Positions 172 to 40,317 of a DNA stretch of 64,000 nucleotides are shown piece after piece; the first letter of the stretch is position 1, and the number at the start of each line of letters is the position of its first letter. The stretch comes from Peteryoungia aggregata LMG 23059 (GTDB taxonomy: Bacteria > Pseudomonadota > Alphaproteobacteria > Rhizobiales > Rhizobiaceae), in assembly GCF_030814435.1 (NCBI RefSeq), contig NZ_JAUSUW010000007.1, forward strand, positions 1 through 64,000. Reading direction: 5' to 3'. The notes under the pieces are model-generated. The model saw nothing but the letters and a program-made list of their open reading frames with translations, made no database searches and was not told the DNA's origin. The translations under genes were made by a program, and so were the position numbers.

Positions 172-411
172 TCAGGCCGCGTTCAGATCCGCCGTCTCGC
201 CGAAGCCGATGATCAGTTTGGGGCTCGACATGTCGCCGCTTTCCTCGTCGACCTGGACGGAATAGGCGGCGACGCCGATGTGGCGGGCGGACATGGCGGT
301 GGCGATCTTTTCGGCGGCGGCGGCACTCGAGGCCTGGCGCATTTCACCGGGGACGACATTGCCACGGTTCTTCTTGAAGGGGAGGACGATGAATTTTTCG
401 GAGAGAGACAT
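172..411 (-). CDS. Unknown 79-residue protein, candidate SOS gene
   Basis: A small soluble protein of 79 residues beginning MSLSEKFIVLPFKK, with no signal peptide and no membrane segment. I do not recognise a characterised family and assign no function. I chose the ATG at 411 because GGAG lies eight bases upstream; an in-frame start further upstream would run through the promoter. A perfect TTGACA lies 47-52 bases upstream (458-463), and a GTTC-N7-GTTC LexA-type box covers 429-443, overlapping the position of the -10 element. That layout suggests DNA-damage control. It stands alone on the minus strand, and its downstream neighbour lies outside the window. Confidence 0.7.
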   Translation of the reverse strand: MSLSEKFIVLPFKKNRGNVVPGEMRQASSAAAAEKIATAMSARHIGVAAYSVQVDEESGDMSSPKLIIGFGETADLNAA

Positions 412-32281: not shown

Positions 32282-32296
32282 GTTCAACCTTTGTTC
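32282..32296 (+). promoter_or_regulatory. LexA SOS box of dinB
   Basis: GTTC, AACCTTT, GTTC matches the alphaproteobacterial LexA operator exactly, six bases before the dinB ATG. It lies just after a TTGACA (32275-32280). A second possible promoter, TTGTCT-17-TATGGT (32247-32275), would start transcription at about 32282, inside the box. Either way LexA would block dinB. Confidence 0.85.
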
Positions 32297-32301
32297 TTGT
32301 C

Positions 32302-33585
32302 ATGACGCGCCCCGACCTGACACATTCCGGCTTCTGTCGCGACTGCCTCACCGAGCAGGCGGAGGGCGCGCGTCGATGCCGATCCTGCGGCAGTCCTCGC
32401 CTCGTCTATCACGGCGAACTCCATGATCTGTCGATCGCCCATATCGACTGCGACGCCTTTTATGCCTCTGTCGAGAAACGGGACAATCCGGACCTCATCG
32501 ATAAGCCCGTGATCATCGGTGGCGGCAAGCGTGGCGTGGTGTCGACCGCCTGCTACGTTGCGCGCATCCACGGCGTGCGCTCCGCCATGCCGATGTTCAA
32601 GGCGCTGGAAGCCTGCCCGCAGGCGGTGGTGATAAAACCGGACATGGAGAAATACGTGCGGGTGGGGCGACAGATCCGGGCGATGATGGAGGAACTGACG
32701 CCGTTGGTGCAGCCAATCTCCATCGACGAGGCGTTTCTCGACCTGAAGGGCACGCAACTCCTGCACCACGATCCACCCGCCCGGGTGCTCGCCCGTTTCG
32801 CACGCCGTATCGAGCAGGAGGTCGGCATCACCGTGTCGGTGGGGCTTTCCTACTGCAAGTTCCTCGCCAAGGTGGCGTCCGACCTGCAGAAACCGCGTGG
32901 TTTCTCCGTGATCGGGGAAGCCGAGGCGCTCTCCTTCCTCGCCGACAAGCCGGTGACGATGATCTGGGGCGTCGGCAAGGCCTTTGCAGCCACGCTGCAG
33001 GCGGACGGCATCCGCACCATCGGCCAGCTACAAACCATGGACGAGACCGACCTGATGCGCCGCTACGGCTCGATGGGGCAGCGGCTCGCGCGGCTTGCGC
33101 GCGGCATCGACGACCGGACGGTGCATCCCAACGATCCGGCCAAGAGCGTGTCGGCAGAGACGACCTTTTTCGAGGACATCCACCGGCTTGACGATCTCGT
33201 CGTTCATCTGCGCGCCCTTTCCGAAAAGGTTGCCTGGCGGCTGAAGCGTCACGAGATTGCCGGGCAGACTGTCGTCCTGAAACTGAAGACCGCCGACTTC
33301 AAGCAGCGCACCCGCAACAGGCGGCTGGATGATCCGACACAGCTGGCCGACCGGATATTCCGGACGGGCATGGCACTGCTGGAGAAGGAGACGGACGGGA
33401 CGAAGTTTCGCCTGATCGGGATAGGGGTCAGTGACCTCGGGGATCCCGCACGCGCCGATCCACCCGATCTCGTCGACGAACAGGCGACGCGGCGGGCAGC
33501 GGCGGAAGCGGCGATGGACAAATTGCGCGACAAGTTCGGGAAGGGTACCGTGCAGACGGGTTACACCTTTCCATCCAAACGATAG
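32302..33585 (+). CDS. dinB: DNA polymerase IV with an N-terminal zinc-ribbon-like extension
   Basis: A 427-residue Y-family translesion polymerase. Catalytic acids are Asp49 and Asp51 ([12 protein letters not shown]) and Asp142/Glu143 (SIDEAFLD); the little-finger domain ends in [12 protein letters not shown]. No C-terminal clamp-binding QxxLF motif is evident. The first 40 residues precede the polymerase fold and carry CRDC and CRSC (Cys12, 15, 26, 29), a zinc-ribbon pattern absent from E. coli DinB. SOS control is indicated by the LexA box upstream. Confidence 0.95.
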
Positions 33586-35766: not shown

Positions 35767-38700
35767 TTACACAAGCTCCACATCGAGCACGCCGGGCGTC
35801 GAGCGCATGGCGGCGGCGATTTCTGGTGAGATGCGGAAGCGCTCGGTCAGTTCGACCTCGATCTCGCGCTGCCCTTCGTCCTTGATGACAATGAAGGAGA
35901 CGAGGCCGTCGCCTCTCGCATTCAGACGCGCTGCAACGGCGCGCAAGGGGCCGGAATCGCGGACATAGACGCGCATCGCCTTCTGCATGCGGATCGACTG
36001 CTCCTCCAGCGACTGAGCCGTCTGGACCCGCAGGCCGATGCCCTCGGGCCTCTCCTCGGCCTGGACAGTGAGCACCAGCGACTTTCCGGGCTCGAGCAGG
36101 TCACGGTACTGGTTCAGGCCTTCCGAGAAGAGTACGGCTTCGTACTGGCCGGAGGCATCCGAGAAGGTGATGATGCCCATCTTGTTGCCGGTGCGGGTCT
36201 TGCGCTCCTGGCGGGAGATGACGGTGCCGGCGAGACGGCCGGCGGATGCGCCCTGCTTCACCGCGACCGAGAAATCCGCGAAATTCTGGACACGCAGCTT
36301 GTCGAGCAAATCCCGGTAAGCATCGAGCGGATGGGCGGACAGGTAAAAGCCGAGCACCTGGAATTCGCGCATCAGCTTTTCGGAGGAGAGCCAGGGCGTG
36401 TAGGGTGCAAAGGCGATCCGCTCGGGCCCACTTGCGCCGCCGGAGCCGAACATGTCGGACTGGCCGCTGACGGCATTTTCCTGGGCGCGCTGGGCATAAC
36501 CCATGATGCGGTCGATGCTCCCGACGAGTTCGGCGCGGTCGCGACCGAAGCAATCGAAGGCGCCGGCGGCGATCAGACTTTCGAAGACGCGGCGGTTGAT
36601 CTGTTTGGGGTCGATCCTGAGGCAGAAATCCTCGATGCTCTCGAAGGGCGTCTCCCCGCGCACCTCGACGATGTGATCGACCGCACCTTCACCGACCCCC
36701 TTGAGGGCGGCGAGTGCGTAGTAGATGCGGTTCGGCCCGGTCTGGAAGTGCCGGTAGGAGGTCTGAACCGAGGGGGGCACGACTTCGATGCCAAGGCGGC
36801 CGGCGTCCTGGCGGAAGTCGACCAGCTTTTCGGTGTTCGACATGTCGAGCGTCATCGATGCGGCAAGAAACTCGACCGGATAATGCGCCTTCATATAGGC
36901 CGTCTGGTAGGAGACGATGGCGTAGGCTGCAGCGTGTGACTTGTTGAAGCCGTAGTTCGCAAACTTGGCCAGCAGTTCGAAGATGTTGTTGGCCTGCGGC
37001 TTGGAGACGCCATTCTTCATCGCGCCGTCAACGAAACGGGCCGACTGCTGGTCCATCTCCGCCTTGATCTTCTTACCCATGGCGCGGCGGAGAAGGTCGG
37101 CCTCGCCGAGCGAATAACCCGACAGGACCTGCGCGATCTGCATGACCTGTTCCTGATAGACGATAACGCCCTGGGTTTCCTTGAGCAGGTAGTCGATCTT
37201 TGGATGGATCGAGGCGACTTCTTCTTCGCCGTGCTTGCGGGCGTTATAGACCGGGATGTTTTCCATCGGGCCCGGGCGATAAAGCGCCACCAGCGCGATG
37301 ATGTCCTCGATGCAGTCGGGGCGCATGCCAATGAGGGCCTTGCGCATGCCGGCACTTTCCACCTGGAAGACGCCGACGGTTTCACCGCGTGACAGCATCT
37401 CGTAGGTCAAGGTGTCATCGAGCGGGATGGCCGCCAGATCGACCTTGATGCCGCGCTGCTCCTCAACGAAGTCGACGGCCGTCTTCAGCACCGTCAGCGT
37501 CTTCAGGCCGAGGAAGTCGAACTTCACGAGACCGGCCTGCTCGACCCATTTCATGTTGAACTGGGTGACCGGCATGTCGGAACGCGGATCGCGATACATC
37601 GGCACCAGCTTCGAGAGCGGGCGGTCGCCAATGACGATACCGGCGGCGTGGGTCGAGGCGTGGCGATAAAGGCCCTCGATCTTCTGGGCGATCTCGAGCA
37701 GACGCGCAACGACCGGTTCTTCGGCGGCCGCCTCCTGGAGCTTGGGTTCCTCCTCGATCGCCTTGGAGAGAGGCGTCGGGTTGGCCGGGTTGTTCGGCAC
37801 GAGCTTGCAGATCTTGTCGACCTGGCCATAGGACATTTCGAGCACGCGGCCGACGTCGCGGAGCGCTGCACGGGCCTGCAGCGATCCGAAGGTGATGATC
37901 TGCCCCACCTGCTCGCGACCATATTTCTTCTGGACGTAGCGGATGACCTCTTCGCGACGTTCCTGGCAGAAGTCGATATCGAAGTCGGGCATAGAGACGC
38001 GTTCCGGATTGAGGAAGCGTTCGAAGAGGAGCGAGAAACGCAGCGGGTCGACGTCAGTGATGGTCAGCGCATAAGCGACCAGCGAGCCGGCACCCGAACC
38101 ACGGCCAGGGCCGACCGGAATATCATGCTGCTTCGCCCATTTGATGAAGTCCGCAACGATCAGGAAGTAGCCAGGAAATTTCATGCGCTCGATGACCGAG
38201 AGCTCGAACTCCAGGCGTTCGCGATATTCTCTCTCTTCGTAGCCGGGCGCCATGCCGAGGGCTGCAAGACGGTGGTCGAGCCCCTCCTCCGCCTGACGAC
38301 GCAGTTCGAGCGCCTCTTCGCGTTCGGCTTCTTCCGGATCGTCGCTGCCGCCGGTGAAGCGCGGCAGGATGGGCTTGCGGGTATCCAGCACGAAGGAGCA
38401 GCGACGGGCGATCTCGACCGAATTCTCCAGCGCCTCCGGCAGATCGGCGAAGAGCTTCATCATATCCGCCCGGCTCTTCAGGTAGTGATCTGGTGTCAGG
38501 CGGAAGCGGTCGTCGTTCGAGACGATGGCGTTGTGGGCTACGGCCATCAGGGCATCATGGGCGTCATAGTCGTCACGCGACGGGAAAAAGGCCTCGTTGG
38601 TTGCGACCAGCGGCAGGTCATGTTCATAGGCGAGCTGGACCATGCGGCGCTCATGCGTACGGTCGTAGTCACCGTGGCGCTGCAACTCGACATAGAGGCG

Positions 38701-39267
38701 ATCGCCGAACAGGCGCTTCAGCGACAGAAGACGGCTTTCGGCCTGGGCCTTGTGGCCATCCTTCAGGATACGATCAATTGGACCGCCGCCCGCGCCCGTG
38801 AGCACGATCAGGCCTTCGGTCCCGCTCTCTTCGAGCCAGGAGAGCTTTACATGGGTCGGTTGCCCCGCATCGCCGCCGAGATAGGCACGGCTGACGAGAT
38901 CGACGAGCCGCTCATAGCCATCGGCATCCGATGCCAGGACGACGACGGCCGGCAGATCCGGCATATGGCCATTGCCGCCGCGCTTCTCGCCGGTTGAATC
39001 CTCCATGTCGATCGACAGCTGGCAACCGATGATCGGCTGGATGCCATCGCCGAGTGCCTTCTGGGAGAACTCAAGCGCGACGAAGAGATTGTTGGTGTCC
39101 GTGATCGCAATCGCCGGCTGGTCGTCGGCGACTGCCTTGCCGAGGATCTTCTTGAGCGGCAGAGCGCCCTCAAGCAGCGAATAGGCGGAATGCACCCGCA
39201 AGTGCACGAAACCCGGGCCATCACCCAGTCCACCGGACGCCTGCCTGTCGACGTTGTCCTCGCCCAT
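35767..39267 (-). CDS. dnaE: DNA polymerase III subunit alpha
   Basis: A 1166-residue replicative polymerase. The PHP domain begins FVHLRVHSAYSLLEGALPL. The catalytic aspartates lie in PDFDIDFCQERREEVI, with GPGRGSGAGSLVAYAL in the palm, and FNKSHAAAYAIVSYQTAYMK follows. An OB fold near the C-terminus starts around LAGTVISRQERK. It is the DnaE1 type, with no imuAB genes nearby. A 12-bp hairpin and the small LexA-box gene lie in the 340 bases upstream. Confidence 0.97.
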   Translation of the reverse strand: MGEDNVDRQASGGLGDGPGFVHLRVHSAYSLLEGALPLKKILGKAVADDQPAIAITDTNNLFVALEFSQKALGDGIQPIIGCQLSIDMEDSTGEKRGGNGHMPDLPAVVVLASDADGYERLVDLVSRAYLGGDAGQPTHVKLSWLEESGTEGLIVLTGAGGGPIDRILKDGHKAQAESRLLSLKRLFGDRLYVELQRHGDYDRTHERRMVQLAYEHDLPLVATNEAFFPSRDDYDAHDALMAVAHNAIVSNDDRFRLTPDHYLKSRADMMKLFADLPEALENSVEIARRCSFVLDTRKPILPRFTGGSDDPEEAEREEALELRRQAEEGLDHRLAALGMAPGYEEREYRERLEFELSVIERMKFPGYFLIVADFIKWAKQHDIPVGPGRGSGAGSLVAYALTITDVDPLRFSLLFERFLNPERVSMPDFDIDFCQERREEVIRYVQKKYGREQVGQIITFGSLQARAALRDVGRVLEMSYGQVDKICKLVPNNPANPTPLSKAIEEEPKLQEAAAEEPVVARLLEIAQKIEGLYRHASTHAAGIVIGDRPLSKLVPMYRDPRSDMPVTQFNMKWVEQAGLVKFDFLGLKTLTVLKTAVDFVEEQRGIKVDLAAIPLDDTLTYEMLSRGETVGVFQVESAGMRKALIGMRPDCIEDIIALVALYRPGPMENIPVYNARKHGEEEVASIHPKIDYLLKETQGVIVYQEQVMQIAQVLSGYSLGEADLLRRAMGKKIKAEMDQQSARFVDGAMKNGVSKPQANNIFELLAKFANYGFNKSHAAAYAIVSYQTAYMKAHYPVEFLAASMTLDMSNTEKLVDFRQDAGRLGIEVVPPSVQTSYRHFQTGPNRIYYALAALKGVGEGAVDHIVEVRGETPFESIEDFCLRIDPKQINRRVFESLIAAGAFDCFGRDRAELVGSIDRIMGYAQRAQENAVSGQSDMFGSGGASGPERIAFAPYTPWLSSEKLMREFQVLGFYLSAHPLDAYRDLLDKLRVQNFADFSVAVKQGASAGRLAGTVISRQERKTRTGNKMGIITFSDASGQYEAVLFSEGLNQYRDLLEPGKSLVLTVQAEERPEGIGLRVQTAQSLEEQSIRMQKAMRVYVRDSGPLRAVAARLNARGDGLVSFIVIKDEGQREIEVELTERFRISPEIAAAMRSTPGVLDVELV

Positions 39268-39341
39268 ACCGCTTCATTCCTCATTACCTGAATCGATCGG
39301 GATTTTCGGTCTTTGCGGCTGTGAAGTCCAGAAGGAAGTCG

Positions 39342-39374
39342 GGCGGCAAGAGCTTGGTCACCAGCTTTGCCGCC
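39342..39374 (-). promoter_or_regulatory. Hairpin in the dnaE leader
   Basis: GGCGGCAA pairs with TTGCCGCC and AGCT with AGCT around an 8-base loop, with one bulged base. It lies between the stop of the 28-residue peptide gene (39383) and dnaE (39267). No T-run follows on the minus strand, so it is not a classical terminator; it may limit read-through into dnaE or affect its translation. Confidence 0.45.
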
Positions 39375-39382
39375 GCAGAATG

Positions 39383-39469
39383 TCAGAGCGCCATCATCAG
39401 CAAAGCCATGCTGGATACGAATACCGCCATCGAGGCAAATGCAGCAACGTCACGAAGAATTTCGGTCAT
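39383..39469 (-). CDS. 28-residue membrane peptide under a LexA-box promoter
   Basis: The ORF encodes MTEILRDV followed by a 20-residue hydrophobic segment (AAFASMAVFVSSMALLMMAL), a single membrane helix reaching the C-terminus. An AAGGAGA ribosome site lies six bases before the ATG. The promoter has TTGACA (39521-39526) and a consensus LexA box between -35 and -10. Size, topology and control resemble Caulobacter SidA, an SOS-induced 29-residue division inhibitor, but I claim no sequence homology. It is isolated upstream by the lolD terminator and lies 115 bases before dnaE. Confidence 0.65.
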   Translation of the reverse strand: MTEILRDVAAFASMAVFVSSMALLMMAL

Positions 39470-39502
39470 TTCTGTCTCCTTGTCCCTTTATGTTTTTAGT
39501 TT

Positions 39503-39517
39503 GTTCTTCTCTTGTTC
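39503..39517 (-). promoter_or_regulatory. LexA SOS box in the promoter of the 28-residue peptide
   Basis: The plus strand reads GTTC, TTCTCTT, GTTC, an exact direct-repeat LexA operator. On the minus strand it begins three bases after the -35 TTGACA (39521-39526) and reaches the -10 region (CAAACT, 39498-39503), an ideal repressor position. It could also affect dnaE by read-through. Confidence 0.75.
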
Positions 39518-39536
39518 CAATGTCAACCTAAAAAAA

Positions 39537-39580
39537 CCGCAGCCTCGGTGGAACAAAATCCACCGAGGCGCAGCGGCATC
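39537..39580 (-). terminator. Terminator of the proS-lolC-lolD unit
   Basis: An 11-bp perfect stem (GCCTCGGTGGA with TCCACCGAGGC, six-base loop), extended by a CCGC/GCGG pairing, is followed on the minus strand by TTTTTTT. It lies about 30 bases after the lolD stop. Confidence 0.9.
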
Positions 39581-39609
39581 AGGAAAGGGAAAAGAAAAGG
39601 GGACTGAGA

Positions 39610-40317
39610 TCAGACGTCGAGTTCGACGACCTTGCCGTCGACCAGTGTCACGCAGCGATCCATCCGACGGGCGATGTCATGATTGTGGGTCGCGATCATG
39701 GCCGACAGGCCCGACTGTCGCACCAGCGCCTCAAGCGCCGAGAAGACGTAGCTTGCCGTTTCCGGATCAAGATTTCCGGTTGGCTCGTCGGCGAGCAGGA
39801 CGAGCGGGGCATTGGCAACGGCGCGGGCGATTGCCACACGCTGCTGCTCACCGCCAGAAAGCTCAGCCGGACGATGTTCGGCGCGATGGCCGACACGCAT
39901 GTAGTCGAGAAGCTGCTTGGCCCGTTCCGCGGCTTCGCCCTTGGAGAGGCCAGCAATCAGCTGCGGCATCATGACGTTCTCCAGCGCCGAGAATTCCGGC
40001 AGGAGGTGGTGAAACTGGTAGACAAAGCCGACCGACTTGCGGCGGATCGCGGTGCGCTCTTCGTCACCGAGCTCCTGGCAGGCGACGCCGCCAAGTGTGA
40101 CCTCACCGCCATCCGGATGCTCAAGCAGGCCGGCGACATGCAGCAGCGTCGACTTGCCGGTGCCGGAGGGGGCGACCAGTGCGACGGTCTCGCCGGTGCG
40201 AAGCGTGAAGTCGGCGCCCTTGAGGATCGACAGCACTGTCTCACCCTGACCGTAATGACGATCGATGCCGGCGAGCGAGAGAACCACGTCTTTTGCCATT
40301 GAATTCGGCATCCTCAT
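39610..40317 (-). CDS. lolD: Lipoprotein-releasing ABC transporter ATP-binding protein
   Basis: A 235-residue ATPase that powers release of outer-membrane lipoproteins to LolA. Walker A is APSGTGKST, the signature is LSGGEQQR, Walker B is [13 protein letters not shown], and the switch His lies in ATHNHD. The ATG overlaps the lolC stop (ATGA). It forms the complex with the LolC/E permease encoded upstream. Confidence 0.95.

Follow-up and report, generated by a model that had tools for sequence, protein, structure and literature searches.

A 28-codon open reading frame (ORF) lying between lolD and dnaE of Peteryoungia aggregata LMG 23059 is likely a divergent orthologue of Caulobacter sidA and, by analogy with SidA, would encode an SOS-induced inhibitor of the late divisome. 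SidA is a 29-residue, SOS-induced inhibitor of the inner membrane which interacts with FtsW and FtsN, according to the passages on this protein in PMC4211646. The identification is based on the ORF and its LexA-type box, which are both conserved, on purifying selection acting on the peptide, on a position like that of sidA, and on an ungapped resemblance to SidA together with an intermediate peptide. The window referred to throughout is the whole stretch of DNA that was analysed (64,000 nucleotides).

Organization of the locus

The elements of the locus and its neighbours are as follows.

35767..39267, minus strand: dnaE (DNA polymerase III alpha), downstream neighbour, NF004226 with 1497.8 bits (cut-off 1002)
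39290..39294, minus strand: GATTC (GANTC) site in the conserved promoter-like element TGGACttc ... GATTCag before dnaE, from comparison of spacers
39383..39469, minus strand: 28-codon ORF, MTEILRDVAAFASMAVFVSSMALLMMAL, SidA-like peptide with one hydrophobic helix, read directly
39475..39481, minus strand: AAGGAGA ribosome-binding site, read directly
39492..39495, minus strand: AAAC, degenerate third half-site, 11 bp past the second half-site, from comparison of box-bearing loci
39498..39503, minus strand: CAAACT, -10-like hexamer, with a spacer of 17 nt to TTGACA, read directly
39503..39517, minus strand: LexA-type box GAAC-N7-GAAC, GAACAAGAGAAGAAC, exact motif match
39521..39526, minus strand: TTGACA, -35 hexamer, read directly
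39542..39569, minus strand: intrinsic terminator of lolD, 11-pair stem and T-run, terminator call
39610..40317, minus strand: lolD, upstream neighbour, ORF with best NCBIfam match to TIGR02211 LolD

Along the minus strand the order is thus lolD, terminator, TTGACA, box, CAAACT, AAGGAGA, the 28-codon ORF and dnaE, where the box starts 48 nt before the ATG of the ORF. The ORF, the AAGGAGA site, TTGACA and the lolD terminator upstream, all named in the original prediction, were found again when the sequence was re-read by script, and the exact box does lie between -35 and -10, with the -10-like CAAACT taken as the -10 hexamer. A generic sigma-70 consensus scan calls no promoter at the peptide locus, because CAAACT is a poor match to TATAAT. 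The single membrane helix proposed for the peptide corresponds to a hydrophobic stretch, whose best 17-residue Kyte-Doolittle mean is 2.13, compared with 2.22 for SidA of C. vibrioides. The peptide has no family in Pfam or PHROGs and no match among PLSDB plasmids, and lolD scores 251.6 bits against TIGR02211 LolD (NCBIfam), which is below the model cut-off of 307.75.

The LexA-type box

The window contains six exact boxes against 1.83 expected, and this number was reached in one of 100 shuffles. Since a single exact box is weak evidence alone, conservation must decide its significance. A chance origin of the box is rejected on conservation and controls, though one exact box is not rare. As positive controls within the genome, lexA and recA each have a box upstream, whose start is 60 nt away from the first ATG for lexA and 142 nt away for recA. 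Within the window, an exact box (32282-32296) stands directly before dinB (32302-33585, plus strand), which encodes DNA polymerase IV (NF002751, 737.7 bits) and is a probable second SOS gene of the window. A review (PMC9578287, Table 1) lists GTTC-N7-GTTC as the SOS box of Caulobacter. The operator comprises three half-sites with an 11-bp period, where the outer one is mostly AAAC or GAAC (48 of the 56 box-bearing loci of the genus and family described below). Elsewhere in the window, an exact box (GTTCTCTTAATGTTC, 429-443) lies just upstream of a 79-residue ORF (175-411, minus strand), which has no Pfam or NCBIfam match at E<=0.1 and is a possible further SOS gene.

Conservation in the genus and family

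The dnaE start was located in 60 of 60 same-genus genomes, out of which 30 loci were read, that of the window included. Under the test by stops and frameshifts in close relatives, proposed with the original prediction, the ORF proved intact in all 30, and the exact box is present in 29. A pool of 59 loci, made up of the same-genus loci (window included) and the 30 best-scoring tblastn matches of the family, encodes the peptide throughout, with 28 residues in 58 loci and 27 in one; the ATG start of the ORF at one locus (L284) is confirmed. Conservation of the peptide together with the box, a check likewise proposed, holds in 56 of these 59 loci, which bear the exact box. In 54 of the 56 the distance from the start of the box to the ATG is 47-50 nt, and in 52 TTGAC precedes the box by 9-10 nt. 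While the exact-box rule itself imposes the half-sites, it leaves the spacer free, and the spacer varies.

The peptide is under purifying selection, as follows from pN/pS values of 0.285 (24 distinct coding sequences of the genus) and 0.389 (52 coding sequences), and from a mean heterozygosity in the genus of 0.189, 0.014 and 0.316 at codon positions 1, 2 and 3, respectively.

At E<=1, tblastn with the window peptide matches 100 of 199 family genomes. The match lies at most 2 kb upstream of dnaE on the same strand in 75 of them and elsewhere in 15, and the dnaE coordinate is not listed for the remaining 10. The 20 weak or non-adjacent matches that were read comprise these 15, four of the ten unplaced ones and a second copy in G078; all 20 encode peptides of 27-29 residues, and 19 have the exact box. 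Around 17 of these 20 no dnaE is present in the stretch of about 2 kb; 16 of the 17 bear the exact box, and lolD lies upstream in 10. As for the 76 dnaE-upstream regions lacking an adjacent tblastn match, one of which (G085) is in fact a distant adjacent match, the peptide was found by profile in 16 (exact box in 13), and no peptide was found by profile in the other 60.

A broader profile, A3, matches 182 of the 199 family genomes at E<=0.1 (weakest 0.0185), mostly by profile score alone. Nine of the 17 family genomes without an A3 match are of 2.0 Mb or less, and nine of the ten family genomes in this size range have no match to the peptide profile at all, which suggests that the peptide was lost with genome reduction. 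Two or more strong profile matches occur in each of seven family genomes (G016, G119, G189, G050, G142, G077 and G078), which may thus encode paralogous SidA-like peptides; the extra copy that was read (L385, from G078) has no exact box.

Relation to dnaE

No terminator-like signal is present in 57 of 58 peptide-dnaE spacers, and therefore read-through into dnaE is possible. GANTC also occurs in 57 of the 58, within the promoter-like element TGGACttc ... GATTCag (spacer at 39267-39382, minus strand, in the window), and this site before dnaE may be one of CcrM-type cell-cycle control of dnaE. As dnaE has this promoter-like element of its own, and as boxed peptides occur away from dnaE, the role of the peptide seems to be independent of dnaE. 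An ancestral alphaproteobacterial module may be considered with reserve, in which the SOS division inhibitor and dnaE would share a transcript and one LexA operator would stop the divisome and raise DnaE during repair, the peptide being retained by most larger genomes of the family and lost from almost every small one; we regard this as unlikely.

The ORF could also be a translated leader (uORF), whose translation would tune the expression of dnaE and whose peptide would have no target of its own. This reading, which we consider improbable, draws on the place of the ORF before dnaE, on the absence of a terminator-like signal in 57 of 58 spacers, and on S. meliloti, where sORF25, a small ORF missing from earlier annotation, is translated within the 5'-UTR of dnaE1; the relevant parts of PMC10117765 suggest some such sORFs as uORFs. 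The main text of that paper contains neither 'SOS' nor 'LexA', and its parts on sORF25 give neither sequence nor function; judged by its position, sORF25 is probably the same gene as the ORF of the window. A leader of dnaE is, however, difficult to reconcile with the 15 of 100 tblastn-matched family genomes in which the peptide lies away from dnaE, or with the 17 of 20 weak or non-adjacent matches that have no dnaE within about 2 kb (exact box in 16 of the 17, lolD upstream in 10), and second codon positions are nearly fixed in the genus (heterozygosity 0.014), while dnaE has its separate conserved promoter-like element.

SidA as the dnaE-proximal peptide of Caulobacteraceae

Named Caulobacter genomes were reached via the beta-clamp sequence of PDB 5wce, and 12 Caulobacteraceae were chosen from 80 named loci, dnaE being found in all 12 genomes. 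Each of the 12 encodes a peptide of 29-30 residues directly upstream of dnaE on the same strand, with 34-83 nt from its stop to the first matched DnaE residue; the operator is the exact box in eight and GAAC-N7-CAAC in four. Against NF033228, 'cell division inhibitor SidA', whose cut-off is 35 bits, the 12 peptides score between 53 and 74 bits and so all pass (72.4 bits for the 29-residue peptide of C. vibrioides DSM 9893, L262); SidA is therefore the dnaE-proximal peptide of Caulobacter. The word 'dnaE' is absent from the main texts of four SidA-citing papers (PMC4211646, PMC13384398, PMC12700426 and PMC13396833).

Comparison of the window peptide with SidA

The window gene is like Caulobacter sidA (NF033228, div_inhib_SidA) in its place directly upstream of dnaE, as in 12 of 12 Caulobacteraceae, in the GAAC-N7-GAAC-type box close upstream of the ORF, and in its length of 28 as against 29 residues with one hydrophobic helix, within the 28-30 residues of the SidA type. 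Unlike SidA, the window peptide has neither Trp19 nor Cys22 and falls below the SidA model, since NF033228 gives no match to it at E<=1 and the equivalog cut-off of 35 bits is not reached. The neighbourhood also differs upstream, as lolD is the next gene in the window, whereas in Caulobacteraceae it was seen in six of the 12, at least 0.6 kb upstream of dnaE within the 1.5 kb covered.

Aligned without gaps, the window peptide and SidA share R6, D/E7, A10, L/F11, S13, F17 and V18. In a single comparison by hhalign, the Rhizobium-type and SidA alignments pair without gaps over 21 columns (probability 79%, E 1.5e-5). All eight SidA-type peptides score best at offset 0 against the Rhizobium-type matrix, with permutation p values of 0.0003-0.025 under full shuffles and weaker ones, 0.002-0.072, under separate shuffling of N-terminus and core. 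With the SidA matrix, which tests the reverse direction, p is below 0.05 under full shuffles for 9 of the 11 peptides of Rhizobium or intermediate type, and the other two are not significant (0.09 and 0.39); over the permutations in this direction as a whole, several peptides are not significant, with p up to 0.51. The test for a conserved helix face is not significant (p 0.085-0.29), and no binding face is therefore claimed.

A profile built free of SidA finds 11 SidA-type peptides among 40,748 sequences at E 1.6e-6 to 9.9. Because it gives SidA of C. vibrioides only an E of 4.6, and because core-shuffled decoys with a real N-terminus reach 7.5e-5 with the same profile, sequence by itself is no proof of a link to this SidA. 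There is also an intermediate. The peptide of G476, which is boxed and adjoins dnaE with lolD about 0.9 kb further upstream, matches the SidA model at E 3.9e-5 (23.5 bits, under the cut-off) and the SidA-free profile at E 1.6e-6, while G554 has the order lolD, box, peptide and dnaE and a peptide of 44.3 bits, over the SidA cut-off. What ties the window peptide to SidA is place, operator, length, register and intermediate taken together. The original prediction had proposed a counterpart of SidA by function, with no claim of homology. It is supported by the finding of sidA upstream of dnaE with the same type of box, by the ungapped alignment and by the intermediate, and the evidence goes beyond it, as place, operator and the intermediate favour orthology.

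Being small, hydrophobic and placed behind an SOS-type box, the peptide might instead belong with TisB and DinQ, which are SOS-induced membrane peptides (PMC2826370 and PMC3567139), and act as a depolarising toxin leading to dormancy rather than as a ligand of the divisome. There is little to recommend this over a divergent SidA, given that place and register match sidA and that 39000-40000 contains no Rfam family at the gathering threshold, hence no described antitoxin RNA; undescribed antisense RNAs would escape such a search. Least probable of all is sidA ancestry with LexA control but a changed target, such as another component of the envelope or of polar growth, for which it counts that few positions are common to Rhizobium-type and Caulobacter-type peptides and that Rhizobium-type cells grow from the pole, and against which it counts that the best-kept positions of the two groups coincide and that FtsW, FtsI and FtsN are general divisome proteins.

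Other groups of Alphaproteobacteria

In the class, dnaE was located in 323 of 385 genomes, and 109 dnaE-upstream regions, none of them from the own genome, were read from the best-scoring part of these 323. Of the 109, 20 contain an exact box with a hydrophobic small ORF after it, a combination that occurs in no region on the antisense strand or in any of 20 shuffles (109 regions each time); boxes alone number 21 sense, 8 antisense and 0-3 per shuffle. The 20 loci belong to eleven family groups, and a further locus outside the 20 (L065) has an ORF that overlaps dnaE and was hence missed. No exact box occurs within 450 nt in 88 of the 109 regions, so the arrangement of box, peptide and dnaE is far from universal.

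A3 matches 13 of the 20 boxed loci, in seven groups, some of them by construction because they gave rows to A3. The other seven, from groups f44, f125, f2 and f60, have the place, the box and the hydrophobic ORF, but no A3 match. These unmatched boxed ORFs before dnaE, namely L069, L081, L085, L118 (group f44), L134, L145 and L160, are either relatives that have diverged very far or unrelated peptides that were brought under the same operator.

On whole class genomes, A3 matches 26 of 385 at E<=0.05. Outside the own genome, 20 matches reach E<=0.003; every one of them shares its 3-kb stretch with dnaE, and 18 have the exact box. Of the 20 genomes concerned, eight supplied rows to A3 and 12 supplied none. 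Five weaker matches have no dnaE in the stretch, and three additional groups (f6, f66 and f93) come from the A3 class matches. To judge from these comparisons, SidA-like relatives are very probably present in several other groups of Alphaproteobacteria. A search of the 385 class genomes by sequence only, with the Rhizobium-type alignment, had given 110 matches at E<=1, of which the best one not from the own genome stood at 0.0043; they were mostly short and chance-like, and the search was replaced by locating dnaE and reading upstream; at least two of its weak matches (G559 and G202) do adjoin dnaE.

Proposed function and known systems

As a divergent SidA, the peptide would be controlled by LexA, which would keep the promoter shut from the GAAC-N7-GAAC operator with its degenerate third half-site between -35 and -10. 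DNA damage would activate RecA, LexA would be cleaved, and the peptide would be made. After the manner of SidA, it would then insert as one membrane helix and keep the late divisome (FtsW/FtsI/FtsN) inactive until repair is complete. Damage induction, membrane insertion, the FtsW/FtsI/FtsN target and the division block are all predicted here from what is known of SidA.

The proposed mode of action resembles that of DidA, a damage-induced, single-helix membrane inhibitor which acts on the FtsW/FtsI/FtsN complex of Caulobacter; in contrast, DidA has 71 residues, is SOS-independent and is induced by DriD, as given in the passages on it in PMC4211646. YneA, SosA and ChiZ are likewise damage-induced membrane inhibitors of division, but come from other phyla. 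AlphaFold 3 models in PMC13396833, according to its sections on these inhibitors, put ChiZ, SosA and SidA at TM7 of FtsW. Among the matches listed from the open-licence literature, no paper concerns SidA or its homologues in rhizobia. SOS-induced inhibitors of the SidA type are already known, and what is new is probable members beyond the reach of the current SidA model.

The peptide is a small and directly testable candidate with its own LexA-type operator, present in most of the family and in several other family groups, and with it sORF25 of S. meliloti, translated but unexplained, gains a probable identity. Gene order together with the operator can thereby reveal orthologues that are too short for a sequence search.
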